NCBI GenBank assembly: GCA_028819235.1 | Contig: JAPPMC010000311.1 | Span: 48,310 to 112,309 of the forward strand | Reading direction: 5' to 3' | Origin: Bryobacterales bacterium | GTDB taxonomy: Bacteria > Acidobacteriota > Terriglobia > Bryobacterales > UBA6623 | Length of the DNA stretch: 64,000 nt | Shown: positions 4,656 to 49,306 of the stretch, piece after piece | Layout of the letters: every line of letters starts with the position of its first letter | How positions within the stretch are numbered: position 1 is the first letter of the stretch | Notes under the pieces: generated by a model | Database searches by the model: none | What the model was told of the DNA's origin: nothing | Seen by the model: only the letters and a program-made list of their open reading frames with translations | Translations under genes and position numbers: made by a program

Positions 4656-7600
4656 TTACCAGACCACCTTCAATCCAACCTGATTGATGCGAGCCGGGCG
4701 CGTGCCCGTGATCTTGCCGAAATTGGGCGAAGCGCGGTTCCTCTGGGGTGGGCTCCACTGGGCGTGGTTCCACGCGTTGAACGATTCAAACCGGACCTGG
4801 ACGCTAAGCGTTTCTGTGATCGAGAAGTTCTTGAACAGGCCGGTGTCAAAGTTATTGATCCCGGGCGCTTTCATGATGCTCCGGCCCGAGTTGCCGAGCA
4901 CGCCGCGTGCGGGCTGCTCGAACGCATCGGTGTTGAACCAGCGGTCGATCGTGCGATTCGAAGGGCTCAGCAGAGGATCGCCGACGAGGTTGGCTCGGTT
5001 CGTGCCGAACGTGTCGTTCAGCCCGCCTATATCCGCTGCCTGCACGGTCATGGGGAAGCCGTCTTGGAACGTGACGATCGCATTCACCTGCCACCCGCCC
5101 AAGATGTGATTGGCTACGGCCGGCAGGTTCGAGAGCAGCTTCCTGCCGCGGCCCACCGGCAGCTCGTAGACGAAGCTTGTGACCAGCCGATGGTCCACGT
5201 TGAAGTCGGAGAGCCCGTAGTCGCGCCGCCAATCGTGGTTGTCCAAGAAGCCCTGCCAGCCGGCCACGGCCCCGCCGACGCCAATGCCGGCTGCCGCGGA
5301 CTTGCTGTCAAGGCTCTTCGACCAAGTGTAGGCTGTCGTGAAGATCATCGAGCTGGTGCGCCGCTCAAACTTGAAGTTGAACGCGTTGTAGCTTGAAATG
5401 CCGCTCCAGTCGCTGTCGATGTAAACCCCGAAGTTGGGGAACGGCTTGCGCGTCGGCACCGGGCAGTCCCGCAGGCCCTCGTTGCCGGAAGTGCCGCAGA
5501 AGCCGGGATCCTGCATCTGCAGGGCTTGGGCGATGTTGCGCCGCATCAGTAGGGCCGTGCCCTTCGTGCCGACATAGCTGAAGTCGATCTTCGAGTACTG
5601 GTCCAAGGCGCGCTGGATGCCGAACGTCCACTGGGTCACGTACGGATTGCGCGGCTCCGGTGACATGCTGACCGCCAGGAAGGTATTGAAGGCGGGATCG
5701 GCGGGATCGCCGCTGCGGATCGCTGGAAACATTTGGTCGGTCGAGCGCAGCGCGCCGCCGGGACCCTCCCCGTTGCCGATCGTCTGCTGATAGAGGCCGC
5801 GGCTGACATAGGGGTAGATGTCGGACGCTCCGTCGATCTCGCGTCCCTCGGCTGAGTCGAAGAAGACACCGAAACCGCCGCGGATGACAGTCTTCTCGTC
5901 GTCGAACGGACGGATCGCAAAGCCGAAGCGGGGCGCGAAAACGCGCCGCGAGCCGGGATAGGGGTTGCGACTGCCCGCGAACCGATAGTAGGACTGGTCG
6001 CCGACGATCCCAGAGTCGACCAGATTCTGGTCGGCTACAAGCAACCCTCCGGTCGGATTCGAAAGGTCGCGCCATCCCATCCGGTCGTTGGTCTCGTTTG
6101 GCGTGGTGCGGAAGTCGTAACGCAGGCCGAGATTGAGCGTCAGGCGCGAGTTGACCTTCCAGTCGTCCTGGAAGTACGGGGCGAAGTACAGGAAGTTGAA
6201 ATCGCGGGGGTTGCCGGCTTGGTCACCCACCGCGAATCCCCCGGGCTGGAACACGCTGGCGTTGTTGTAGTAGCCCAGCAGCATGTCCGCGACAGCGTGG
6301 TCCCAATTCTGGTTCCCGCTGAAGAAACCGCTGAACGTGAATTGGCCCAAGAAGTCGTTGGCCAAGTCGCGCTGCAGGGACCACTGGCGGAAATTGGCCC
6401 CGAACTTGAACGTATGGCTACCCCGGATCCACGTCGTGCCGTTTGAGATGTCCCACATCGGCTGGTTGCTGGCCTGATAGTCGTTCACGGCGCTGCCGCC
6501 TCCCGAGAGGCCCGCACCGTTGCCGCCGAAGCCCACGCCCGGGTAGGACCGCTGCTCCTCGTTGAGCCCCTGGAACACGCCACTCAGCGCGAGCGTGTCG
6601 ATGTCGGCCTGGTCGGCCAAGGCGCTGTGCTGGTTGGCCAGCGCCCGCACGTACCCGAAGCGGAACTCGTTGATGAGGTTGGGGCCAAACAAGCCCGTGT
6701 GCGAGACCTGCCAGTTCTCGGTCTCCTGGACGAAGAAGACATCCCCCAATTCGGTGGTGTTTCCCAAGGTGATGGCGGTGTAGTCCGTTCGCGTGTAGCG
6801 CCCGAAGAGGTTTCCCCACGACCCGAGGTTCTGGTCGACGCGGAAGGTGTACTGGTCGGTGTCGGTCGGAATCGAACGCTGGCGTAGGTAGTTCCCTCGG
6901 TCCGAGCTTGCGTTCGGGGCCGGGATGAATTTCTGGACGGTCAGACTGGCGAGCCGAGAGTAGCGGCTCTTTGGGACGCGGTTGTCCGGGAACGGGACCG
7001 TCGGAGCTCCAACCGGACCGCTCAGGGGGTCGAGAACCGGTTGGGGGTTGGCTGCGCGGCCGGGCCCCTGATACCCGGTGAAGACGCCGTCGAGCTGGTC
7101 CGGGGTGGGAACGTTCAGGAAGCCCAGCGCCGCCCTGCGCGTCCGGCGGCCCTCGAAGTTGCCGAGCCAGAATGTCCGGTTCTTAACAGCCGGGCCGCCG
7201 GCCACAAACCCGAACTGGTTCTGCCGCAGCGGATTCTTCTCGCGGCCGGCAAGGTTGTTGAAGAACGTGCTGGCGTCCAGCGCGTCGTTGCGCAGGAAGT
7301 GGAAGAGTGTCCCGTGCAGTTCGTTCGTCCCGGTCTTGCTCACGATGTTGACCTGATTGGCGCTGAATCCGTACTCCGCCGAGTACGTCGCCGTCTGCTC
7401 CTTGAATTCCTGGATAGCGTCGATCGACAGGATTGCGGCCGGCGTGCCGAGGGCCGTGTCCGTGTTCGAAGTGCCGTCAAGGAGGTAGTTGTTGGAAGTG
7501 GGCCTGGCGCCGTTGATGCTGATGGCCCCGCCTGCGTCCCTTCGCATGGAGCTCTGCTCGCCCCGGGTCTCGACCGCCCCGTTGCCGAGGAAGAGCAACT

Positions 7601-25494: not shown

Positions 25495-28107
25495 ATGCCC
25501 CCGCGCTATGTCCCCCCAGCGGTGGTCGGCGCGCTGCTGGCCGGTCTCGCCGCGAATCCCGCGGGCTTTGCCCAAGGCCCGCAGCACTCCTACCTGTCCG
25601 ACGAATTGAGGCAACGCGTTGACGAGCTGCAGCTTGCAGCCCGCAGCGATGGGACCACCGTTGCCAACCTCAAGGCTCGGCTCGACACTCTCTGGCCTTG
25701 GATCAATGCGTACTCTCTCACTGGGGGCCCCGTGCCGGTCAACGCCACGCTCCAGGTGGCGACAGCCTTCAGAGCACTGGAGGCCCAACGCTTGGAGGGA
25801 AACCAACCCGGACCGAGTGTCTTGGCCGACGTTGACGCACTGATCCACGAGTTCACCGTCAAGGACCTCCACCCGGAGGCGCTAGGAACGGTCTCCTTGG
25901 AGACCGAGGGCCCCGTCCACGTGGGCTCTTGGGCCACCATCCGCCAGACATACACCGTCGGGAAGGCCCCGCTCAACCCGGGAGCCCGGATCATGGTGGC
26001 CAGGCAGTTGCAGGCCGACGGAGGACACGTCCAGAACAGGGACGCCGCAGGCCCCCACTACGTTTCCGCATCGGCGTCGAGACCGACAGTGCGGCTGGAA
26101 CGCACGACTGTTCCGCATTCTGGAATGCACGGTGGGTTTCGCAGTCCCGAGGCGATGCCCACGTTCGAAGTAGTCGGTGGCTCGTTGGAGCCGGGCGAGA
26201 CCGTCACGATCGTGTACGGCGACCGTAGAGAGGGATCCGAAGGCTGGCGAATGCAGACCTTTGCTACGGACGAGGCGATCCTCCCGATCTACGTCGACCT
26301 GGACGGGTCCGGGAACTTCCTGACGCCCGGCTGGCCTGCCTTTTCGATCCTGGGAAACTCGGCCGCTGGCGTCACGGCCGTCGTCCCCTCGATCGTTGCT
26401 CCGGAGGAACCATTCACGCTCGCGATCCGCTGGGAGGACGACGCCGGAAACCGTGCCACAGGAGAAATGCCGGCGGCGGAGATTCTCGTCAACGGCGAGC
26501 CGTTTCGGATCTTGGCTCCAAGTCCTGAGCCCCTGCGGAGATTTCCGGACGTTTGTCTGTCGCAAGAAGGTGTCTACAGGTTCTCCGTGGTCAGCGACGA
26601 CGGGAAGATCCGTGGCCTGAGCAACCCAGTATGGGTCCGCCGCGAACCGTCCTATCGCATCTGGTGGGGAGAAACGCATACGCACACCGGCATGGCTGAG
26701 GGTCAGGGTTCGATCCGGCGGTCGTACGAGTTCGCTCGTGAGGACGCGCGCTTGGACTTCCTAGGCCTCTCTGAGCATGACATCTGGCTGGACGACCGCG
26801 AGTGGCGGACCATGCAGGAGTTCGCCCGGGCGAACACCGTGGCGGGCGAGTTCGTCGCGTTCTTAGGGTACGAGGGAACCTTGCGAAGGCAGTGGGGCGG
26901 CCACCACAACGTCTTCTTCCGTTCTCCAGATGCCAACCGGGTCGGGGCCCAGATCGCGCCAACGCTGACCGGGTTGTACCAAGGCCTGCGGGAGAGATAC
27001 CCGACCGAAGACGTTCTGATCATCCCCCACGCGCACCAAGCGGGCGACTGGCGAACCAACGATCCCGAGATGGAGACGATGGTCGAAATCATGTCGATGC
27101 ACGGAACGTTTGAGTGGTTCGGGAACTACTACCTGCGCCAAGGCCACCAAGTCGGATTCTTGGCCGCCTCCGACGACCACCGCTCGCGGCCAGGCTACAG
27201 CTGGACCTCCGGCCGCCAGCCGAGATCCTCGCTGAGCCAGTTCGGCGGCCTGGCCGGTGTGCGAGCCGACCAGAAGACTGCGGACGCAATATTCGACGCC
27301 CTCAAGGAGCGTAGCGCCTACGCCGTCACCGACGCCCAGCGCATCATCCTGGAAGTGGACGTCAACGGTGCCGGAATGGGCTCGCGGACCACCCAAGGCC
27401 AGCGTCGCAAGGTGCGGGCTAGAGTGATCGGCACCTCCCCGATCCGCAGGCTGACAGTGGTCAAGAACGGTGAGACCGTCTACTCCAGCCGACCTCTCAG
27501 TTCCGGACTGCAGGGCATCACCAGCCTCGTGGTGGGCTTCGCGTCCTCGTCCGAGCCTTTCTTCCGCGACAACCCCCGTGGCTACCGGCCGTGGACGGGT
27601 TCGCTGACCGTGCGCGATGCCAAGCTCGCGAGCATGCGCCCGCTCCACTTCGACAACCGCCACAACGAGTGGGCCGCAACCGCCGAGAACGAACCGAACA
27701 CCGTCCGGTTCAGCACTGGGACCAGAGGGCAAGCTGACACGCTGCTGCTCGAACTGGAGGGCGCATCGCCCTCGACCTCGATCGAATTCCGCCTGGACGA
27801 GGCCACAGAGTGGGGCAAGTCTCCCGTGCCCATACGTCCGCCTGGAAAGCTCAAGGCAAGGCAGTTCCAGGTCGCCCTGGGCGAGATGGCAGACGGCTTC
27901 GCGCGCAAGGCACTGTCCGAGACTGTCGACCGCGACTCGGTGACGCTGGAGGCGATCGGATCGCACCAACCCATGGAGGCGGAGATCGAGTTCACCGACA
28001 CTGGCGAGGCACGTCCGGGCGACTACTACTACGTGCGTGTGGACCAGCTTGACGGCGCACGCGCCTATTCGTCACCAGTTTGGGTGGGCGGAGAGCCCCG
28101 GCGGTGA
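25495..28107 (+). CDS. DUF3604/PHP-domain secreted protein
   Basis: N-terminal hydrophobic segment; RIWWGETHTHTGMAEGQGSIRRSYEFAREDARLDFLGLSEHD...VAFLGYEGTLRRQWGGHHNVFFRS...DVLIIPHAHQ...VGFLAASDDH. Confidence 0.85.
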   Translation: MPPRYVPPAVVGALLAGLAANPAGFAQGPQHSYLSDELRQRVDELQLAARSDGTTVANLKARLDTLWPWINAYSLTGGPVPVNATLQVATAFRALEAQRLEGNQPGPSVLADVDALIHEFTVKDLHPEALGTVSLETEGPVHVGSWATIRQTYTVGKAPLNPGARIMVARQLQADGGHVQNRDAAGPHYVSASASRPTVRLERTTVPHSGMHGGFRSPEAMPTFEVVGGSLEPGETVTIVYGDRREGSEGWRMQTFATDEAILPIYVDLDGSGNFLTPGWPAFSILGNSAAGVTAVVPSIVAPEEPFTLAIRWEDDAGNRATGEMPAAEILVNGEPFRILAPSPEPLRRFPDVCLSQEGVYRFSVVSDDGKIRGLSNPVWVRREPSYRIWWGETHTHTGMAEGQGSIRRSYEFAREDARLDFLGLSEHDIWLDDREWRTMQEFARANTVAGEFVAFLGYEGTLRRQWGGHHNVFFRSPDANRVGAQIAPTLTGLYQGLRERYPTEDVLIIPHAHQAGDWRTNDPEMETMVEIMSMHGTFEWFGNYYLRQGHQVGFLAASDDHRSRPGYSWTSGRQPRSSLSQFGGLAGVRADQKTADAIFDALKERSAYAVTDAQRIILEVDVNGAGMGSRTTQGQRRKVRARVIGTSPIRRLTVVKNGETVYSSRPLSSGLQGITSLVVGFASSSEPFFRDNPRGYRPWTGSLTVRDAKLASMRPLHFDNRHNEWAATAENEPNTVRFSTGTRGQADTLLLELEGASPSTSIEFRLDEATEWGKSPVPIRPPGKLKARQFQVALGEMADGFARKALSETVDRDSVTLEAIGSHQPMEAEIEFTDTGEARPGDYYYVRVDQLDGARAYSSPVWVGGEPRR

Positions 28108-37592: not shown

Positions 37593-40568
37593 CTACGGCG
37601 CCGGACTCGTCCAGATCGGGCTAGACCAAGCCAGCTCCCCATCGGCTTGCTCGACACGCACGTAGTACCAGTGGTCCCCGGGCGGAGCATCGACATCCAA
37701 GTACTCGAATTCGGCCTCCTGCGTCCCGGGCTCGGCCTTGTAGACGTAGGTGCCGTCCCGAATCACGTGGACTGCTGCGACGGCATCAGTACCCCGGACC
37801 CGCACCCGCGCTGGGACCGGTCCCGACATTTGCACGTCCTCGCCCATGAACGCGCTCCCCATCCGGAACTCGAGCACGATGTTGTCCGTGGCGCCATAGG
37901 TCCGGCGCGCCCGGATCGAGTCGTGAATCGCCTCCCTGCCGGTGCCGGGACTGTAGACCATGGCGTAGGAGATGTGGGTCGAGTAGTGATCAGAGCTGGC
38001 GATCACGCCAATCTTGTAGCCCTTCGACCATGCGTTCCAGAACATCCCCGGCTCTTGGAACCCGCCAGCAGCGCTGGACTCCTCGCCGTCGAAGATTCCG
38101 CGCGGGGCGTTCTTGTGCTCATAGCTCTGACGCGCCCCTTGGTAGATCTCCGCCACCGTGTCGACCTCCGGATCGTGATCCCGCCAGTCCGTACCCATCG
38201 AGTTCGTGCCCGATGTGTGGGGGATCGCAATGCCGCCCGTCCTACGGGCGATGTCATACATCAGCCGCGTCTCGTTGCGCACTCCGCTGCCGAAGCCCAT
38301 GGAGGAAAACGTCAGCAGCTCCCCGTCGGGGCTGTCCGGGAGCAGGAAGCGCGGGTGCATGGGCATGTAGAAGGGCACGATGGGGTAGTCGCGGTGCGTG
38401 TAGATGAGGTTGCGGTGGCCATAAGGGTTCCCCGGGTTGCGCTCGTACCCGTAGAGCGTGGAGAAGCGCTCCGGAAAGTGGTACATGTCCGCGAGCTTCT
38501 GTGTCACGGCGTTCCAGAAGTCCGTGCCGCCCGCTTGGTGGTCGGTTGAAGCTCCGAAGTCCATCTCCGCGGCGTCGATCATGTAGCGGTAGAACTCAGG
38601 CAGGGACCCGTCGTCGAGACCGCCAACGTCCTGCGAGAGCTCGGTGTGCCGATGCAGGTCTCCGCGCAGGATGCGCAGAGCCTTCCCGCCGTGCTCCGTC
38701 CTGTAGCCGCGGATGTAGCGGACGTCGGCGAGCTCCGTGGGGTGCGAATCGGGCCGCGACTCGCCCGGCTCGGGACGATAGTCGGACAGCTCGGGTGGCC
38801 GCCCGGGACCGGGCAGCGGCAGGGAGCCAGCGACGACGCGGTTGAGCAGCGGCCGGCTGGCGAAGGCCCACTGGCGGCTCTCGTCGGGCCAGAACGCCCA
38901 CAGCCGCCCTCCGGCAGCGGTTATGCCCATCCGCGTGCTCTTGCGCGACCAGCTCCGGGGGAGCGTGATTGGGTCGGTCCAGCGGTCCCCGTCTAGCCGC
39001 GTAACGAAGTACTCCCAGTAGGAGGTCGGCCGGTAGGACCGCCGGCTGTAGCGCCTCTTGAACGACATCCACAAGCTGCCGTCCGGGTCGAAGAACAGCT
39101 GCGGGCGGCTCTCGCCCGTGGATCCCGGCGCTGCCGGGTCGGAGAATCGCACGGGCGGGGGAGCCTTCCAGCGGCCCCCGTCCAAGCAGACCAGCTCGAT
39201 TCGCCTGGCGGAGCCGAGCGGCGTGCCCGGCTGCCGATTTCCGAGACCGCGTCCCAGATCCTTGCCCCAGCCCACGCCGGACGTCTCCCAAGCGATCCAA
39301 GGCCGTCCCTGCCGGTCCACGGCAAGGCTAGCGTGGGCCTCGAAACGGGTCGTCGATGCAACGGTCATCTCCGGCCCCAAGCCCTCACCCGGGGCGAACG
39401 ATCTGGCCACGATGTCGTAGCTTCCGCCCGAACCCTTGCGGTACCGGTCCCAAGCGACCCAAGCCACCCCTCCCGGACCGGCCGCAACGGCCGGGGCCCA
39501 GTCGTTAGAGTCCGTGTTGGTAACGGTCACGGCCCTCGACCAGCGACCGTCTCTCAGGTACCTGAGGCGGACCTGCGTGTGCCTGCCGGCCATCGCCTGC
39601 CAGACTATGTAGATCGTGCCGTCTCCAGCGCGGGCGACGTGCGGCTCGATGTCCGGCAGCGGGCTGTCCGTGAGCCGGTGCTGTCTGCCCCACTCGCCGT
39701 CCTCCCAGGCCATCGCGTAGATGTCCCAGTTAGCGGGCCGCCTGTGCAGTGGGCTCTGGGAGTAGACCAGCCACGGCGTGTCCCCGTCATCGACCGCCAC
39801 CTGCGGCCGCCATAGGTCCTCGGCCGCCCTTCCGACCGGGATCAGCCGCGACCAGCGGCCCTGGTGGTAGCGGCGGAAGTTCAGCTCTTCGCGACGGTCG
39901 TGATAGCTGTACCACGTAGCGTAGAGGTTGCCTGCCGTGTCGGCGGCGATGTCCGGCGAGTCGTGCTGCCGAAGCTCCGTCCCTGACAGGTCGGTGGCGG
40001 GCACGGTCCGCTGGATGGCTACCCGGCCGCCCACCGCCCGGGCCCACGGGCCGACCGGCATTTCCGTGGGCCGGAACTCGAAGTCGCCCTGCGCGGTGCG
40101 GACGGCCACGATCGTGGACGCGTTCCCGCTGCCGCGGATCCAGAGACCCTTCGGCAGGACTTCCACCCGCTCCACGGGCGTCGGCCTCGGCACGACGGTC
40201 GACCGCAGCATGATCCGCACGTCCTGCGTCCGCAACCGCCAGCCGCCCTCCGGCAGGATGCGGTCCGGCGGCTCCTGCCGATGCGGCCCGAGTGAGAGGA
40301 TCTCCCCGTTACGCACCGACAGGCTCCCGTCCCAGGACTCGCCGGCGTCGTCGCCGACGCCGAAGAGCACGAGGACCTGCCACATGTCGGCCTCGCGCGT
40401 GCCTCCGGGCAGCCAAGTGAACGCGCCCAGGAAGTCCTCCCCGGCAGCTGCAGCGGCCCCGGACTGTGACGCCGGGACGGCCTGCGCCTTGAGGGGCCTC
40501 GCCGCCGAACTAGCCAGCCAGGCTGCCAACAGTGCGCAGAGGACGGCTGACTTCGCGGCATCGGTCAT
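37593..40568 (-). CDS. Large secreted DUF3604/PHP-domain protein with N-terminal beta-propeller-like region (second copy)
   Basis: ILRGDLHRHTELSQDVGGLDDGSLPEFYRYMIDAAEMDFGASTDHQAGG...FSTLYGYERNPGNPYGHRNLIYTH...GVIASSDHYSTHISYAMVYS; N-terminal repeats such as DTPWLVYSQSPLHRR, GTIYIVWQAMAGRHTQ, GVAWVAWDRYRKG. Start set at ATG 40568 before a hydrophobic signal. Confidence 0.87.
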   Translation of the reverse strand: MTDAAKSAVLCALLAAWLASSAARPLKAQAVPASQSGAAAAAGEDFLGAFTWLPGGTREADMWQVLVLFGVGDDAGESWDGSLSVRNGEILSLGPHRQEPPDRILPEGGWRLRTQDVRIMLRSTVVPRPTPVERVEVLPKGLWIRGSGNASTIVAVRTAQGDFEFRPTEMPVGPWARAVGGRVAIQRTVPATDLSGTELRQHDSPDIAADTAGNLYATWYSYHDRREELNFRRYHQGRWSRLIPVGRAAEDLWRPQVAVDDGDTPWLVYSQSPLHRRPANWDIYAMAWEDGEWGRQHRLTDSPLPDIEPHVARAGDGTIYIVWQAMAGRHTQVRLRYLRDGRWSRAVTVTNTDSNDWAPAVAAGPGGVAWVAWDRYRKGSGGSYDIVARSFAPGEGLGPEMTVASTTRFEAHASLAVDRQGRPWIAWETSGVGWGKDLGRGLGNRQPGTPLGSARRIELVCLDGGRWKAPPPVRFSDPAAPGSTGESRPQLFFDPDGSLWMSFKRRYSRRSYRPTSYWEYFVTRLDGDRWTDPITLPRSWSRKSTRMGITAAGGRLWAFWPDESRQWAFASRPLLNRVVAGSLPLPGPGRPPELSDYRPEPGESRPDSHPTELADVRYIRGYRTEHGGKALRILRGDLHRHTELSQDVGGLDDGSLPEFYRYMIDAAEMDFGASTDHQAGGTDFWNAVTQKLADMYHFPERFSTLYGYERNPGNPYGHRNLIYTHRDYPIVPFYMPMHPRFLLPDSPDGELLTFSSMGFGSGVRNETRLMYDIARRTGGIAIPHTSGTNSMGTDWRDHDPEVDTVAEIYQGARQSYEHKNAPRGIFDGEESSAAGGFQEPGMFWNAWSKGYKIGVIASSDHYSTHISYAMVYSPGTGREAIHDSIRARRTYGATDNIVLEFRMGSAFMGEDVQMSGPVPARVRVRGTDAVAAVHVIRDGTYVYKAEPGTQEAEFEYLDVDAPPGDHWYYVRVEQADGELAWSSPIWTSPAP

Positions 40569-40744
40569 GGCGGTGTCGGGGTCCCGGAGCGGCCTGGCCC
40601 GGCGGAACGCGCCGATTGTAGCGCGGGCTGGGCGCCGGCCCGCCCCGAGGCCCGGCCCGCCGAAGGGTGGCGAGAGCGCAGTGTCCCGCGGGCGGTCGAA
40701 ATATGACATGCATAGAGAATTCCAGTCTCTTGTACTATGGTCCA

Positions 40745-40760
40745 TGTTTCACGTGAAACA
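40745..40760. promoter_or_regulatory. parS: parS centromere-like site (ParB/Spo0J binding palindrome)
   Basis: Exact TGTTTCACGTGAAACA 16-bp palindrome (18 bp with flanking A...T, 40744-40761), intergenic between 40569 and 40848. Confidence 0.88.
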
Positions 40761-40848
40761 TATGCATGCCGCTTATGGAGGCTTCCAAGCCTACCATGGC
40801 CACCCGGCGATCGCCGGAGCTTGGGGCCCGGTTATGAGAGGCTGGGAC

Positions 40849-41985
40849 TCAGAGCCCGGTCCCAACCCAACGCCGCTCTCGGTCTGAGCGTTCGATGGCG
40901 TGCAGCACGCGCTGGACCGCGAGTCCGTCCTCGAACGTCGGCCTTGCCGGCCGGCCCGAGTCCAGGCCGTCGAGGAAGTCCGCTAGGGACGCGATGAACG
41001 TGTGCTCGTACCCGATCGGATGGCCAGCCTTCCAAAAGTTGGGGCTGTCAAGCGGGCCCCTTGCTGGAGGCAGGACTTTCCTCCGGCCGCGCAGGTCTGG
41101 ATCGCCGGAGACTGCGGCGTATGTCAGGTGGTTCATGTCCTCGAAGTGGAACTCCAGCATGCCCTTCTCGCCGTGCACGGCGAAGCTGTTGTCATTCTGG
41201 AACCCGGTCGCGAAACGGGTCGCCTCAAACGAGCCAAGCGTCCCGTCGGCGAAGCGCGCCTGGGCGAGGACGGCATCGTCGACATCCACAGCGTAGGTCC
41301 TGCCGGGAGCCGCCGGGTCGGGCTTCTCCGGCAGGAACGACTGCAGCGTAGCGGAAACCTCACGGATCGGCCCCAACAGCATCATTGCGGTGTCGATCAG
41401 GTGGGAGTTGAGGTCGCCGTTCGCCCCTGAACCGGCGGTCCGCCTGGACATCTTCCAGTTGTTCGGGCGGCCCGGATCCGGGCCCCACTGCTGCAAGTAC
41501 TGCGCCCGGTACTGGTAGAGCCGGCCCAGCCGGCCTTCCCTCAACAGGCGGGCAGCAAGCTCGACGGCGGGGATCCTGCGGTAGTTGAACCACACGAATG
41601 TGGGCACCGCCCGCGTGGCCGCGACCATGGCCTCGGCTTCTCGGAGGTCGTTCGCCAGGGGCTTCTCGCATAGCACGATCTTTCCCGCACCTGCAGCGGC
41701 GGCGGCCATTTCGGCGTGCAGGTAGTTGGGGGCACAGATGTCCACCAGGTCGACGTCGGGGCGCTCGACGACCCTCCGCCAGTCGGTCTCGACACTCTCC
41801 CAGCCCCAAGCGCGAGAGAGCGCCTCCAGTCCCGCCGTGCCCCGGCAGCAGGCCACCCGCCTGCGGATCTTGCGCACGTGCGGGAAGAAGTGGCCGACCT
41901 GTGCGTAGGCGTTGCTGTGCGCCTTGCCCATGAAGCCGCAGCCGATCAGAGCAACGTTGAGGGCCACCGCGCTTGCCATTTCCAA
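40849..41985 (-). CDS. Gfo/Idh/MocA family oxidoreductase
   Basis: NVALIGCGFMGKAHSNAYAQVG...DLVDICAPNYLHAEMAAAAAGAGKIVLCEKPLANDLREAEAMV...LGRLYQYRAQYLQQWGPDP. Confidence 0.94.
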   Translation of the reverse strand: MEMASAVALNVALIGCGFMGKAHSNAYAQVGHFFPHVRKIRRRVACCRGTAGLEALSRAWGWESVETDWRRVVERPDVDLVDICAPNYLHAEMAAAAAGAGKIVLCEKPLANDLREAEAMVAATRAVPTFVWFNYRRIPAVELAARLLREGRLGRLYQYRAQYLQQWGPDPGRPNNWKMSRRTAGSGANGDLNSHLIDTAMMLLGPIREVSATLQSFLPEKPDPAAPGRTYAVDVDDAVLAQARFADGTLGSFEATRFATGFQNDNSFAVHGEKGMLEFHFEDMNHLTYAAVSGDPDLRGRRKVLPPARGPLDSPNFWKAGHPIGYEHTFIASLADFLDGLDSGRPARPTFEDGLAVQRVLHAIERSDRERRWVGTGL

Positions 41986-41991
41986 GTACGG

Positions 41992-43464
41992 TCAGCTGTC
42001 GCGGCCGGACCCGACGCGCGCCTGGGCCTCATCCCAGCGGTCGGCGTCCGCAAGTCCCGGAGCGAAGGTCACAGGCCGGACGGACTGCCGGACCACTTCC
42101 CTGCCCTGCGCAAGGCCCCCAATGCGCCCGCTGGCGATGAACTGCATGAGGGCATTGCCCACCGCGGTCGCCTCCACCGGCCCGGCCATCACGGGAATGC
42201 CGCACGCGTCGGCAGCCAGCTGCGAGAGCATTGTGTTGCGGGAGCCGCCACCAACGACGTGCAGCACGGACGGACGGATCCCCGTCACGCCTGCTATCTC
42301 GGCTAGCACGGAGCGGTACCTCAGGGCTAGGCTCTCGAATATCGCCCGCACGAACTGCCCGGGCGTCTCCGGGGCCGGCTGGGCGCTCGCGCGGCACCTC
42401 TGCGCGATCCGCCCGGGCATGTCGCCGGGGGCCACGAACTCGGGGGCGTCCACGTCGAACACGGAACGGAACGGCTCGCTGGCAGCCGCCGCCCCCAGCA
42501 GGATGTCGTAATCCACGTCCCAGCCATGGCCCGCCCACTCCCGCCGGCACTCTTCGAACAGCCACAGGCCGCTGATGTTCTTGAGCAGGCGGATGGTCCC
42601 GCAAACACCACCCTCGTTGGTCAGGTTTCGGGCCATCACTGAAGGGTTGACGTGGGGCCGGCTGACCTCAACGCCCAGCAGGGACCAAGTTCCCGAGCTG
42701 AGGTAGGCCCAACTGTCCCCCTCGGCGGGCACGGCAGCGACGGCCGAGGCGGTGTCGTGCGTGCCGGGCGCCACGACCTTCGCCGCGCCAAGCCCACACT
42801 CCGCTCCAATCCCCGTCAGCAGGGGCCCCACCACCGTTCCCGGCTGGATGACGGGGCCGAAGATCGACGTCGGCAGGCCAAGCCGCTCCAGCAGGGGCAC
42901 GGCCCACTCGCCGCGGGTCGGATCGAAGCACTGGGACGTGGTCGCGTCGGTGTACTCACAGGCCATTTGCCCGGTGAGCCAGTAGTGGAACAGGTCCGGC
43001 ATCATCACGAGCGAGCTGGCGGACTCGAGAGCGCGAGTACCCTTAAGGGCCCACAGCTGGAAGAGGGTGTTGAGTTCCATGAACTGTAGCCCGGTCCTCC
43101 GGAAGATCTCCTCCTTCGGCACGATCCGGGTAACCTCCTCTATCGTTCCGGCCGTGTGGCGGTCGCGGTAGTGCAGGGGGTTCGCCACCAGCGCTCCGTC
43201 CCGGTCGATGAGGGCAAAGTCAACACCCCAGGTGTCCACTCCCAGCGAGACCGGCCGGGCCCGTGCGCCAGCGGACAAGCCATGGCACACTTCGCGAAAC
43301 AGCCGCAGCACGTCCCAGTGCAAACGGCCGAGCACATCCACACCGGCATTGCCGAACCGGTGCAGTTCTTCAACGCCGAGGCGCTCGCCGTCGAATGAAC
43401 CCAGCATCACGCGGCCGCTTCCGGCCCCGAGATCAACCGCGAGACAGTGTTCGGCGGGCACCAA
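41992..43464 (-). CDS. rhaB: Rhamnulokinase-like FGGY carbohydrate kinase
   Basis: CLAVDLGAGSGRVMLGSFDGERLGVEELHRFGN...GRLHWDVLRLFREVCHGL...VSLGVDTWGVDFALIDRDGALVANPLHYRDRHT...FQLWAL...YLSSGTWSLLGVEVSRPHV...GVCGTIRLLKNISGLWLFEECRREW. Confidence 0.88.
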   Translation of the reverse strand: MVPAEHCLAVDLGAGSGRVMLGSFDGERLGVEELHRFGNAGVDVLGRLHWDVLRLFREVCHGLSAGARARPVSLGVDTWGVDFALIDRDGALVANPLHYRDRHTAGTIEEVTRIVPKEEIFRRTGLQFMELNTLFQLWALKGTRALESASSLVMMPDLFHYWLTGQMACEYTDATTSQCFDPTRGEWAVPLLERLGLPTSIFGPVIQPGTVVGPLLTGIGAECGLGAAKVVAPGTHDTASAVAAVPAEGDSWAYLSSGTWSLLGVEVSRPHVNPSVMARNLTNEGGVCGTIRLLKNISGLWLFEECRREWAGHGWDVDYDILLGAAAASEPFRSVFDVDAPEFVAPGDMPGRIAQRCRASAQPAPETPGQFVRAIFESLALRYRSVLAEIAGVTGIRPSVLHVVGGGSRNTMLSQLAADACGIPVMAGPVEATAVGNALMQFIASGRIGGLAQGREVVRQSVRPVTFAPGLADADRWDEAQARVGSGRDS

Positions 43465-43712
43465 GCTTCCTCAGGGTGATTGTCACGCACTCTCCGGTGT
43501 CGACGCAAACCCGGCGCTTGGCCTATCAGTAACGGTTGCCAAGGCCGACGAAGGCGGCGCTAATATCGTGCTATCCTTCGGGCAATCAGGCGCTGGCCAT
43601 CCAGCGGCGGCGTGCTGGGGCCGCTGGGCGAAGGGCCGCAAGGCATGCGACGAGGGCAGGCTACTGCAGCGCGGGACGGGGCCGCCTGCCCAGACCCGGG
43701 CGAGAAGGATCC

Positions 43713-44738
43713 ATGAGACTTCGATCTCTGATGTCGCTGTTCTCCCACGATCTTGCGATCGATCTGGGAACGGCCAACACACTCGTCTATGTCATGAACC
43801 AGGGCGTCGTCGTGGACGAGCCCTCGATGGTGGGCATCAACACCCGAACCGGGGACATTGAGGCCGTCGGACAGGAAGCCAAGCGCATGCTCGGCCGCAC
43901 GCCCGGGATCATCTCCGCGGTCAGGCCTATGCGCGACGGGGTCATCGCAGACTTCAACGTGGCCGAACGCATGCTCGAGTACTTCATCAGGAAGGCGCAC
44001 GACCGGCGCATTTTTGTCCACCCCCGGATCGTGATCGGCGTGCCGGGCGGCATCACGCATGTCGAGCGGCGCGCGGTCTACGACTCCGCGATGCGGGCAC
44101 GTGCGAGTCAGGTTTTCCTGGTCGAGCAGGCGATGATGGCCGCCATCGGCGCAGGCCTGCCGGTGGAGGAGCCGGAAGGCAACATGGTGGTGGACGTCGG
44201 CGGCGGGACGACCGACGTGGCGGTGATCTCGCTGTCCGGCGTGGTGTTCTCCAAGACCGTCACCGTTGGCGGGCACGCGATCGACGAAGCGATCATCCGA
44301 CACCTGAAGTCCAACTACAAGTTTTTGATCGGAGAGCGAACAGCGGAGCGGATCAAGGTTGACATCGCGGCAGCCCGCGAACCGACCGAAGAAATCTCGA
44401 TCGAGGTCAAGGGGCGCGACCTGGTGATGGGCATCCCTGCCAAACTGGAAATCACCAACGTGGACATCTACAATGCGATTGCGCCCTGCGTGGACCAGAT
44501 CATGGTCGCCGTGCGGGAGGCCCTTGAGCACACGCCGCCAGAGCTGAGCAGCGACATCTGCGACCGCGGCATCGTCCTCACAGGCGGGGGGGCGTATCTC
44601 CAGCAACTGGACAGCCGCATCAGGGACGAGATCTCCATTCCGGTGTCGATCGCGGACAACCCGCTGCACTGCGTGGTCGAGGGGACGGGCCGAGTGCTGA
44701 AGAACGTAGCTCTGCTCTCACGTGTGATGATAGAGTAG
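43713..44738 (+). CDS. mreB: Rod shape-determining protein MreB
   Basis: SHDLAIDLGTANTLVYVMNQGVVVDEPSMVGIN...AVGQEAKRMLGRTPGIISAVRPMRDGVIADFNVAERMLEYFI...GNMVVDVGGGTTDVAVISLSGVV. Confidence 0.97.
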   Translation: MRLRSLMSLFSHDLAIDLGTANTLVYVMNQGVVVDEPSMVGINTRTGDIEAVGQEAKRMLGRTPGIISAVRPMRDGVIADFNVAERMLEYFIRKAHDRRIFVHPRIVIGVPGGITHVERRAVYDSAMRARASQVFLVEQAMMAAIGAGLPVEEPEGNMVVDVGGGTTDVAVISLSGVVFSKTVTVGGHAIDEAIIRHLKSNYKFLIGERTAERIKVDIAAAREPTEEISIEVKGRDLVMGIPAKLEITNVDIYNAIAPCVDQIMVAVREALEHTPPELSSDICDRGIVLTGGGAYLQQLDSRIRDEISIPVSIADNPLHCVVEGTGRVLKNVALLSRVMIE

Positions 44739-44744
44739 GGTGGG

Positions 44745-45827
44745 GTGCAAGCCCAACCTACCAACCGGGGAAGCCCGGCAAAGCGCATAGCAGGGGCCAA
44801 TAGCGGCCGATTGGACGGCATTTTGCTTGCAGCGCTGGTGTTGGCCCAGGCTGGGCTCGTCGTCTACCAGATCGGGAAAGACGGGAAAGAGCCGTCGGAC
44901 GTCGGCGTGGGCTATTGGGTCGCCAGCGCCGTGTCGCCGGTCCAGCACGCCGCCGCGTGGGCCGCGCGGTCCGCGACGAGCCTCTGGTCAGCCTATCGCT
45001 CGCAGGTCGAAGCGGTGCAGGAAATCGAGGCTCTGGACGCCCAAGCACGGAATCTGCGGATCCAGAACGAACGCCTGGAGGGCGAGCTGCTGGCGATGAA
45101 GGCGCGACTCGAGACGGACACCTATCGCAGCAGCCTCGACGTCGACACGCTAGCAGCGAAGGTGATCGTTCAACGCCACGCCGGTTCCCCCAAGCAACTG
45201 GTGGTCAACCGAGGGATGGATGACGGAATCCGATCCAAGATGGCCGTGCTTGCGCCTGGCGGCATCGTCGGAAGGGTGTTTGAAAGCTATAAGAATTCGG
45301 CGACAGTGATGCTGCTGCACGATCCCGACTCCGCGGTGGGTGTCGTACTTGCCGGGAGCGGTGCCCGGGGAGTGCTGGTCGGCACGGAAGGCGCGGCCTG
45401 TGAGATCAGGTACATCCGGTCAGCCGTGCCAGTGGCTCCGGGCGAACGCATCTACACTTCCGGAATGGACGGAATCTACCCTCGGGGGCTGCCAGTCGGC
45501 GCGGTTCGCTCGGTGGATGGCGGCCAGGAGATGCACCGCATCACCGTCCGGCTGGCGGCCGACATGGAACGGCTGACCGACGTGGCGATTCTGCTACAGG
45601 TACAGGACAGCGAGTTGCCGGAACCCGTTCGCATTGCGCTGGATGACTCGCTGAAGGAGCCTCCGACGGGCGCCGGGCGAGTGAAGGTAGCCTTTAGCGA
45701 GGCGCTGGCCGAGCAAGAGCGGCAGATCGGCGAGACTGGCCGGAGCCCCCCGGACTTCAGCGCGGTCGTGGCCTCGCTGGGAGACTCTGGCGGCCTGTCG
45801 GAAGCCTCAAGCCTGAACGAGGAGTGA
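44745..45827 (+). CDS. mreC: Rod shape-determining protein MreC
   Basis: N-terminal TM, coiled coil, KVIVQRHAGSPKQLVVNRGMDDGIRSKMAVLAPGGIVGRVFESYKNSATVMLLHDPDSAVGVVLAGSGARGVLVGT; follows mreB. Confidence 0.94.
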   Translation: MQAQPTNRGSPAKRIAGANSGRLDGILLAALVLAQAGLVVYQIGKDGKEPSDVGVGYWVASAVSPVQHAAAWAARSATSLWSAYRSQVEAVQEIEALDAQARNLRIQNERLEGELLAMKARLETDTYRSSLDVDTLAAKVIVQRHAGSPKQLVVNRGMDDGIRSKMAVLAPGGIVGRVFESYKNSATVMLLHDPDSAVGVVLAGSGARGVLVGTEGAACEIRYIRSAVPVAPGERIYTSGMDGIYPRGLPVGAVRSVDGGQEMHRITVRLAADMERLTDVAILLQVQDSELPEPVRIALDDSLKEPPTGAGRVKVAFSEALAEQERQIGETGRSPPDFSAVVASLGDSGGLSEASSLNEE

Positions 45828-46474
45828 ACGGGATCGCTGGTTCCCGCGAGGGCGGAACTCCTGCGGCGCGGGAATCCCCGTCGGTGCGGGTGGCCGTGGG
45901 CCTTCTGGGCGCCGCACTCGCGCTGCAGGCCATCCAAGGCGTGCTTGACTCGCCGCTGCCGACGGCGAACTTCCCGCTGCTTGTGGCGGTCCTGACGATG
46001 GTGCGGTGCTCCGCCAACCTGCACGGAGCCCTGTACGGGGCCTTGGCAGGGTGCGCCTACGATGGGCTTACCCACGCTCCTGTCGGGCTGAGCGGCATCG
46101 CTTGGACCATCGTCGGCTTCTTCCTGCCCTCTGTCGCCAAGGGGCTGCGCATTCACCACGCTGGCGTGATCGCCTGCTTGTGCGCCGTGGCCTTCGTGTT
46201 GCAGGCGGCCCTCTATTCCGGCCTTGAGTTCATCCTGCTGCGGGACCGGTTGACGGTCGAGTTCTCGTGGCAGATCCTGCCGGCCGCCGTGCTGCACGCC
46301 GGCCTCGGAATGCTGCTGTGGCTTATGCTGAACAGGGTTACGGTCCGTGCAGACCGTGTTCTACGAGAGGCGCGCGGCGTTGGAGTTCCGGGTCCTCGTC
46401 TTCCGGGCGGTAAGCGCGGGCGTCTGCGTCGTTCTGCTCCTGGCGTTCTGGGGCATTCAGGGCGCGGGCGATAG
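45824..46474 (+). CDS. mreD: Rod shape-determining protein MreD
   Basis: Several hydrophobic helices and position between mreC (GTGA overlap) and mrdA. C-terminal ~40 aa overlap the PBP2 gene out of frame. Confidence 0.85.
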   Translation: MNGIAGSREGGTPAARESPSVRVAVGLLGAALALQAIQGVLDSPLPTANFPLLVAVLTMVRCSANLHGALYGALAGCAYDGLTHAPVGLSGIAWTIVGFFLPSVAKGLRIHHAGVIACLCAVAFVLQAALYSGLEFILLRDRLTVEFSWQILPAAVLHAGLGMLLWLMLNRVTVRADRVLREARGVGVPGPRLPGGKRGRLRRSAPGVLGHSGRGR

Positions 46475-48203
46475 CCGCTACCGGGAGCGCGCCGAAGACA
46501 ACAGCACCGAATCGCACCCGATCCCGGCGGCCCGCGGCGCAGTCCACGACAGGAACAGGAACCTGATTGCTGGCAGCAGCACGAGGATCTCTGCCCAGAT
46601 CGAGGGCGGGGAGGTCACGCCCGACCTGCTGAGGAAGGTCGCAGCAAAGCTCCGGCTCGGCCCGGGGCACATCGAGCGGCTGCTCGACCAGGCCCCGTCG
46701 CTGGCCCCGTACGAGCACCTCGTGGTCAAGCAGGACCTGCAGTCGTCCGACTTGGCCTTCTTGAGCGCGAACCGCGAGGAGTTCCCCCAAGTCAAGCTGG
46801 TCGAGGAGTTCCGCAGGCACTACGGGCACGAGCGCGTCGCGGTGCATGCGGTCGGATACGTGGGCCGTGCGAGCAGGCAGGACCTAGCGAGACGCGAGTT
46901 CCTGACGGTGGACTACGGGGCAGAGATCGGAAAGTCCGGGATCGAGCGCCAGTACAACCACTGGCTGGCCGGAAAGGCCGGCCGCCGCCGGAAGGAGGTC
47001 GACACACATGGGCGCGCGGTGAAGAAGCTCGACGAGGAGCGCCCCTTGCGAGGCCGCGACCTCGGCCTGACCATCGACGGCCAGCTGCAGGCCGTCGCCG
47101 AACTGGGGCTGAGGGGCCGAAGGGGAGCGGCCGTCGCCATCGACCCCAACACCGGCGAGATCCTGGTGATGGCGAGCGCCCCGTCCTTTGATCCCAATGG
47201 CTTTGCCAACGGCATGGTCCCCGAGGACTGGGCCAGATTGACCTCGGACCCGTCCACTCCCTTGCTGAACCGCGCAATCCAGGGCACCTGGGCCATGGGC
47301 TCGGTGTTCAAGCCCATCGTCGGCCTTGCGGGCCTGGAAGCCAACATCGCGGGGCCGTCATTCACCGCGACCTGCAAGGGGGGAATGGCAATCGGCGGGC
47401 GATACTTCCGCTGCCACAAGCGCGACGGTCACGGCACGGTCGACCTATCGCGCGCAATCGCAGCATCCTGCGACGTCTATTTCTACACGCTTGGGCTGAG
47501 GCTGGGTATTGAGACGCTGAGCGAATACGCAGAGGCTGCCGGGCTCGGCCGGAAGACAGGCGTAGACCTGCCCGGGGAGGCGTCTGGACTGGTTCCGTCG
47601 GCGGAGTGGAAAGCTCGCCGCTCGCTGCAGCCATGGTTTCCAGGCGAGACAGCGGTTGTCTCGATCGGCCAAGGTGCCATGGCCGTAACCCCGCTGCAGG
47701 CTGTGCACGCGATCGGCGGGCTCGCGCTAGGTGGAATCTGGCACCGCCCGAGGCTGGTGTCGGACTCCTTCAGGCGAAAAATGGACGAGAATTGGCGCGC
47801 TCCGCAGCCCGCCATAGCTCGCATCGATAGGGAGCACCTGCGCACCCTCCGCGATTCAATGTTCAACGTGGTCAACGGCGGCGGGACGGGAGGGCAGGCC
47901 AGGCTGGCGGGCGTGGACGTATGCGGCAAGACGGGCACTTCGCAGCGCGTCTCGAACAGCCTGCGCATCCGGTCGGGACGCCCCGACTTCGAGGACGATG
48001 CTTGGTTCGTGGGCTTCGCACCGTGCGACTTCCCGAAAATCGTCGCGGGGGTGCTGATCGAGAACGGCAAGTCGAGCAGCCTCGCCGCGGCCGTCGTGCG
48101 CGACATCCTTCAGGCCTGGCACCTCGGGAGGCCGCCCGATGACGACCCCAAGCCCAAGCGGCGGGAAACGCCCACGTTGGCGATGGCGGGACCGGGCTTG
48201 TGA
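46347..48203 (+). CDS. mrdA: Penicillin-binding protein 2
   Basis: N-terminal TM, IPAARGAVHDRNRNLIA, AVAIDPNTGEILVMASAPSFDPNGF, GTWAMGSVFKPIVGLAGLE (SxxK), DVYFYTLGLRLGIE, CGKTGTSQ. Confidence 0.95.
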   Translation: MQTVFYERRAALEFRVLVFRAVSAGVCVVLLLAFWGIQGAGDSRYRERAEDNSTESHPIPAARGAVHDRNRNLIAGSSTRISAQIEGGEVTPDLLRKVAAKLRLGPGHIERLLDQAPSLAPYEHLVVKQDLQSSDLAFLSANREEFPQVKLVEEFRRHYGHERVAVHAVGYVGRASRQDLARREFLTVDYGAEIGKSGIERQYNHWLAGKAGRRRKEVDTHGRAVKKLDEERPLRGRDLGLTIDGQLQAVAELGLRGRRGAAVAIDPNTGEILVMASAPSFDPNGFANGMVPEDWARLTSDPSTPLLNRAIQGTWAMGSVFKPIVGLAGLEANIAGPSFTATCKGGMAIGGRYFRCHKRDGHGTVDLSRAIAASCDVYFYTLGLRLGIETLSEYAEAAGLGRKTGVDLPGEASGLVPSAEWKARRSLQPWFPGETAVVSIGQGAMAVTPLQAVHAIGGLALGGIWHRPRLVSDSFRRKMDENWRAPQPAIARIDREHLRTLRDSMFNVVNGGGTGGQARLAGVDVCGKTGTSQRVSNSLRIRSGRPDFEDDAWFVGFAPCDFPKIVAGVLIENGKSSSLAAAVVRDILQAWHLGRPPDDDPKPKRRETPTLAMAGPGL

Positions 48204-49306
48204 GCGGGGACCGAGGGGCCAAGGCCCGCTTCTGGACCGACTTCGACGGGCGGATGACGGGCGTGATGCTCGCGATCGCAGTCTTGGGGCTGTTGCAGAT
48301 CTACAGCGCAACGCACAATTCGGACCTCGCGGCCGCATTCCCGCAGCAGTGCACATGGCTCGCGGTCGGACTTGTGGCCTACGTCGCGGTGTCGAACGCG
48401 GATTACCACAACTTAGTCGCCCTGTCCCCTTGGATGTGGGCAGTCATCGTGCTGCTGCTGGTGTACGTGCTGGCGTTCGCGGATCCGATCAACGGCGCGC
48501 GCCGTTGGCTGGTGCTGCCAATCGGCGCGTCGGTCCAGGTCTCCGAGATGGCCAAGGTGGTGCTACTCTTGGTAGTGGCGCGGTACTGCGGAGGGTTCGT
48601 GGCCGGGAAGGTGCGCGCCAGGGACGTTGTCCCGGTCATCCCACTGTTCTTCGCGGTGTTCTTGCTGGTGATCCTGCAGCCGGACCTGAGCACGGCGCTC
48701 AGTCTGCTGCCGCTTCTCGCTATGGCCCTGTTCTTGTCCAAGATCCGTAAGCGCTACTTCGCCATCGCCGGACTGCTGATGGCGCTGCTCGCCCTGCTGG
48801 CATGGTCGACTCTCAAGCCGTACCAGAAGGACCGCATCATGGGCTTTCGGGGACCCAGCGAAGCCCCGCTGAGCAGCGGCTACCAGATCCTGCAGGCGAA
48901 GATCGCGGTCGGCGCGGGCGGACTGTGGGGACAGGGCTTGGGCCAGGGATCGCAGACCCAGCTGCGGTTCCTGCCGGCGGCCCACACGGATTTTGTCCTT
49001 GCCTCATTCGCCGAAGAGCGGGGATTCGCGGGCGTCGCCGTGATAGTGTCCCTCTACATGTGGCTGCTCTGGCGCATCACCGACACGGCAAGGAAGGCGC
49101 GCGAACCGGAGGGGATGCTGATAGCAATGGGGGTGGCAGCTCTGCTGCTGTTCCACTTGCTCGTCAACGGCGGGATGGTGGCGAACCTGCTGCCGGTCAC
49201 CGGCCTGCCCCTCCCGCTGATGAGTTACGGAGGTTCCAACCTGCTGGCCGCCATGGCCATGCTGGGAATGGTCAACAGCGTGCGGATCCGCCGATTTGTG
49301 AATTGA
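48200..49306 (+). CDS. rodA: SEDS-family rod shape protein RodA
   Basis: Polytopic membrane protein: INGARRWLVLPIGASVQVSEMAKVVLLLVVARY, IILQPDLSTALSLLPLLAMALF-type segment, QGLGQGSQTQLRFLPAAHTDFVLASFAEERGFAGV, LPVTGLPLPLMSYGGSNLLAAMAMLGMVNSV. Confidence 0.96.
   Translation: MSGDRGAKARFWTDFDGRMTGVMLAIAVLGLLQIYSATHNSDLAAAFPQQCTWLAVGLVAYVAVSNADYHNLVALSPWMWAVIVLLLVYVLAFADPINGARRWLVLPIGASVQVSEMAKVVLLLVVARYCGGFVAGKVRARDVVPVIPLFFAVFLLVILQPDLSTALSLLPLLAMALFLSKIRKRYFAIAGLLMALLALLAWSTLKPYQKDRIMGFRGPSEAPLSSGYQILQAKIAVGAGGLWGQGLGQGSQTQLRFLPAAHTDFVLASFAEERGFAGVAVIVSLYMWLLWRITDTARKAREPEGMLIAMGVAALLLFHLLVNGGMVANLLPVTGLPLPLMSYGGSNLLAAMAMLGMVNSVRIRRFVN

Follow-up and report, generated by a model that had tools for sequence, protein, structure and literature searches.

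An 18-bp palindrome located in an intergenic region of a Bryobacterales bacterium is very probably a genuine chromosomal parS, predicted from sequence comparisons to be a high-affinity loading site for the lone Spo0J-type ParB of this organism. We consider the site to be accessory to a pair of parS sites linked to parAB, and not a core centromere. A real but ordinary accessory site is the most credible assignment because the palindrome is the same as the parAB-linked tag and because it is kept in a sister species. The stretch of DNA that was analysed, called the window, comprises 64,000 nucleotides and corresponds to positions 48310-112309 of contig C215 in an assembly of 7.19 Mb and 318 contigs.

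The initial annotation of the window reported an exact parS 16-mer enclosed by an 18-bp palindrome and placed it between two genes, and both statements are confirmed. The sequence TGTTTCACGTGAAACA at positions 40745-40760 matches the parS palindrome at 16 of 16 positions and sits within the 18-mer at 40744-40761. The gap that holds it is bounded by the stop codon of a Gfo/Idh gene (40849) and by the start of the downstream ORF (approximately 40568), both of which are encoded on the minus strand. The site and its surroundings include the following features.

37593-40568, minus strand: DUF3604-like gene, downstream of parS (PF12228, E 3.7e-4, 19.5 bits versus a cut-off of 20.4)
40611-40636, minus strand: conserved 26-bp block GGCGCCCAGCCCGCGCTACAATCGGC, 5′ of the DUF3604-like gene
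40681-40800, no strand: fast-diverging segment flanking parS, with 64% identity to the sister genome G002 outside the 16-mer
40704-40713, minus strand: second conserved block of 10 bp, ATGCATGTCA, from the alignment with G002
40744-40761, no strand: 18-bp perfect palindrome ATGTTTCACGTGAAACAT, which encloses TGTTTCACGTGAAACA
40849-41985, minus strand: Gfo/Idh/MocA-family oxidoreductase gene, upstream of parS (PF01408, PF02894, PF22725)
41992-43464, minus strand: FGGY carbohydrate kinase gene (Pfam)
43536-49306, plus strand: cell-shape operon with mreB, mreC, mreD, the PBP2 gene and rodA

Within the window, TGTTTCACGTGAAACA is the sole match at three or fewer mismatches, a loose criterion by which shuffled sequences give a mean of 0.09 matches. 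For the exact 16-mer, the expectation from base composition (GC approximately 0.66) is approximately 1.7e-6 per window and 1.9e-4 per genome. The core of the region around parS (40690-40775) has a GC content of 0.44, compared with 0.66 for the genome. The GGCGCCCAGCCCGCGCTACAATCGGC block may represent a promoter element; a consensus scan yielded no sigma-70 match supporting this role, and scanning across parS by consensus revealed neither a promoter nor a terminator. The TACAATCGGC core of the same block is also present in congeners that do not carry parS.

A genome-wide search returned two exact copies of the 16-mer and one copy with a single mismatch, giving three sites at one or fewer mismatches in all. 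The main pair is located on contig C31, where an exact copy at 44231 lies at the start of parA and the one-mismatch copy at 43771 lies at the 3′ end of rsmG, 460 bp away. Genes on this contig are ordered mnmG, rsmG, parA, parB, with the first three names assigned by reading translations. Both sites of the pair (L016:6231-6246 and 5771-5786) overlap coding sequence, namely a possible ParA start ATG (MFHVKH) and the end of rsmG. A profile search at E values up to 1e-3 identified one ParB_N protein in the genome, encoded on C31 and scoring 112.8 bits, and at this threshold there was no second ParB paralogue of the Noc type. The protein carries GERRLRAA and ENIQRQDLNPIE motifs and matches solved Spo0J/ParB structures with E values reaching 3e-51, the best PDB match being Spo0J (6sdk).

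The contig with the intergenic parS carries neither dnaA nor parAB. The earlier statement that parB is absent from the window is correct, as the genome has a single ParB_N match and this adjoins mnmG, rsmG and parA on C31. Similarly, the assignment of the palindrome to the parS type is borne out by the presence of a matching ParB and by the identical 16-mer at parAB. The initial annotation had named two outcomes that would speak against its proposal, a genome devoid of ParB homologues and a palindrome that is widely scattered. Neither is what we observe, because ParB exists and the source genome has just the three sites at one or fewer mismatches.

The surroundings of the site had been described as a catabolic neighbourhood, a description that is incomplete: on the right side, a block beginning at approximately 43.5 kb carries mreB, mreC, mreD, the PBP2 gene and rodA alongside a gene for RNase E/G. 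The start of mreB is 2.8 kb from parS. Likewise, the downstream gene resembles DUF3604 proteins as had been proposed, but its PF12228 score is below the Pfam cut-off, and it is termed only DUF3604-like. A second DUF3604-family gene, which scores above the cut-off, is present at 25495-28107 of the window, approximately 10 kb from the DUF3604-like gene. Among the neighbours scanned with Pfam, neither a regulator gene nor a mobile-element gene was recognized; the scan covers nearby genes, and distant regulators could exist.

Comparison with ten congeners reveals that parS is next to parB in all of them; in three that were checked for dnaA, this gene and parB are approximately 13-20 kb apart. An exact parS at the place orthologous to the intergenic site occurs in G002 only. 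In the nine other congeners, no match at five or fewer mismatches was found in the 600 bp that follow the Gfo/Idh gene. Six of these nine keep the same downstream gene with a shorter gap (a count read from the sequences, with alignments bearing it out for G005 and G009), and a different sequence directly follows the Gfo/Idh gene in G004, G007 and G008. Nine of the ten congeners do without the intergenic parS, which is thus dispensable for the genus. A solitary exact parS exists elsewhere in G007 (L053:9834-9849), inside what appears on reading to be an epimerase coding sequence, and its contig differs from that of the G007 parB.

The sister genome G002 is 92.5% identical to the source genome over its 8.8 kb contig. 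Identity is 95% in the Gfo/Idh part, 93% in the DUF3604-like part, 78% in the gap excluding parS, and 64% in the 120-bp segment around parS. The parS itself is identical at 16 of 16 positions and resides inside an unchanged run of 20 bp. The chance of such identity is approximately 9e-4 at the identity of the segment (64%) and 0.02 at that of the whole gap, for a test that comprises one genome pair and segment limits picked after the alignment had been viewed. Other runs of 8-26 bp in the gap are also conserved relative to G002. On this comparative evidence, the intergenic parS behaves like a selected ParB site that was gained or kept by one lineage.

The location of the site on the chromosome can be estimated from the relatives G008 and G004, where dnaA maps to 4.876 Mb and 342 kb respectively. 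Up to approximately 43.5 kb of the window, contig C215 is collinear with 6.00-6.10 Mb of G008 and largely so with 862-916 kb of contig C2 of G004, in reversed orientation. From the mapped dnaA positions, the Gfo/Idh gene is 1.22 Mb from dnaA in G008 and 0.52 Mb in G004. The segment from 43.7 to 53.7 kb of the window, extending from mreB to a DctP-family gene, matches 4.614-4.625 Mb of G008 and 435.6-445.8 kb of G004, which are 0.25-0.26 Mb and 0.09-0.10 Mb from dnaA respectively. The origin-proximal location suggested earlier is thus only partly supported: in relatives the right block is 0.09-0.26 Mb from dnaA, and the left block, on which parS resides, is 0.52-1.22 Mb away. GC skew in the single-contig genome G008, sampled in 31 stretches of approximately 16-20 kb, is too flat to indicate the origin.

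The junction between the FGGY kinase gene and mreB (approximately 43490-43536) is found in the source genome (G000) and G002 and is absent from G004, G005, G008 and G009, and parS is located 2.8 kb to the left of this lineage-specific junction. Starting from a gene order like that of G004, a single inversion could account for the divergent arrangement in the window and would then put parS approximately 0.5 Mb from dnaA.

If the intergenic parS functions as do those of known ParABS systems, ParB-CTP dimers would load at the site and slide over adjacent DNA, and the sliding ParB could become part of the main ParB complex or bring in SMC locally. By this analogy, ParB binding, spreading and SMC loading, as well as some benefit to the cell, may be expected. 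Several points count against an accessory site. The intergenic parS is single and isolated, it is dispensable for the genus, and the chance figure of 9e-4 for its conservation rises to 0.02 at the identity of the whole gap, where other conserved runs exist. Caulobacter tolerates a second parS cluster within approximately 500 kb around ori, and clusters in the middle of the chromosome arm are disfavoured (PMC5815017); this disfavour of ectopic clusters far from the native one weighs against our assignment. The same is true of the finding that dispersed parS sites of P. aeruginosa are unable to replace the oriC-proximal ones (PMC4368675).

An alternative is that a real ParB site has retained a local role in silencing or tuning the DUF3604-like gene or the nearby mre operon. 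This would agree with the presence of parS upstream of a gene, with the short distance to the start of mreB, and with the ability of parS-bound ParB to repress nearby genes in P. aeruginosa (reviewed in PMC7022226). However, loss of Spo0J in B. subtilis left parS-adjacent genes unchanged (PMC7022226), congeners that lack parS retain the TACAATCGGC block, and the consensus scan gave no promoter overlapping parS. We regard a local role as unlikely.

The site could also be a neutral relic that arrived with a mobile element or through a rearrangement and has yet to decay, and both the nearby lineage-specific junction and the deviating base composition of the segment are compatible with such a history. 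In contrast, parS has remained unchanged while its surroundings fell to 64% identity, the 111-bp segment carrying it has no second copy in the genome as a mobile repeat would, and the scanned neighbours include no mobile-element gene. Because parS is conserved, a relic is less likely, and we give this explanation a low probability. Least probable by our estimate is an operator for a transcription factor controlling the DUF3604-like gene, with a mere resemblance to parS: although the palindrome is in a gap upstream of a gene and has a second conserved block nearby, the identical 16-mer occurs at parA with no further exact copy in the genome, no regulator was recognized among annotated neighbours, and six congeners keep the gene pair without parS.

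Perfect parS copies are also found beyond the genus. The exact 16-mer is present in 70 of 257 genomes of the order, with 207 copies compared with 1 for a reversed control (per-genome counts added by hand). Carrier genomes mostly have one to three copies, and larger numbers are found in G169 (46), G191 (22), G240 (16), G243 (11) and G170 (9) (loci L225-L244). In these multi-copy genomes the copies are spread over many contigs, with as many as seven in an array; in G169 they occupy 24 contigs and form arrays of at most six, and some copies in G169 and G191 adjoin parB. These assemblies are fragmented, and the counts would fit origin clustering or genome-wide spread alike. A single regulon behind the multi-copy sites was considered and rejected, as ten sampled sites have heterogeneous flanking genes. 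It is conceivable, if doubtful, that the solitary parS is the minimal case of a wider habit among Bryobacterales-like Acidobacteriota of using perfect parS sites outside the core centromere as extra loading points for ParB and SMC, with 9-46 copies in some relatives.

We found no usable paper on parS in Acidobacteria or Bryobacter in the open-access library searched. The accessory site described here would be a naturally evolved case of a lineage-specific additional parS, one missing from close relatives. If ParB binds, the site bears on the origin of extra centromere sites and on where they are tolerated, and the multi-copy relatives would provide a stronger test case than the single parS of the window.

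The system resembles that of B. subtilis Spo0J/parS and its relatives in having the same 16-bp palindrome, a Spo0J-type ParB and a site at mnmG-rsmG-parA-parB. Unlike B. subtilis-type parS, the intergenic copy is solitary, its contig carries neither parAB nor dnaA, and it occurs at this place in only one lineage of the genus. As in Streptomyces coelicolor and Listeria innocua (22 near-origin sites, as cited in PMC5815017), the number of sites exceeds the needs of one core cluster, but in comparison with the number given in that citation the source genome has only three at one or fewer mismatches. The multi-copy pattern occurs in other genera of the order (represented by G169, G191, G240, G243 and G170) and not in the source genome. 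With parS5-10 of P. aeruginosa (PMC4368675) the intergenic site shares a location away from the oriC-proximal cluster, but those sites have two mismatches and are weak (PMC4368675), whereas the palindrome described here is perfect.
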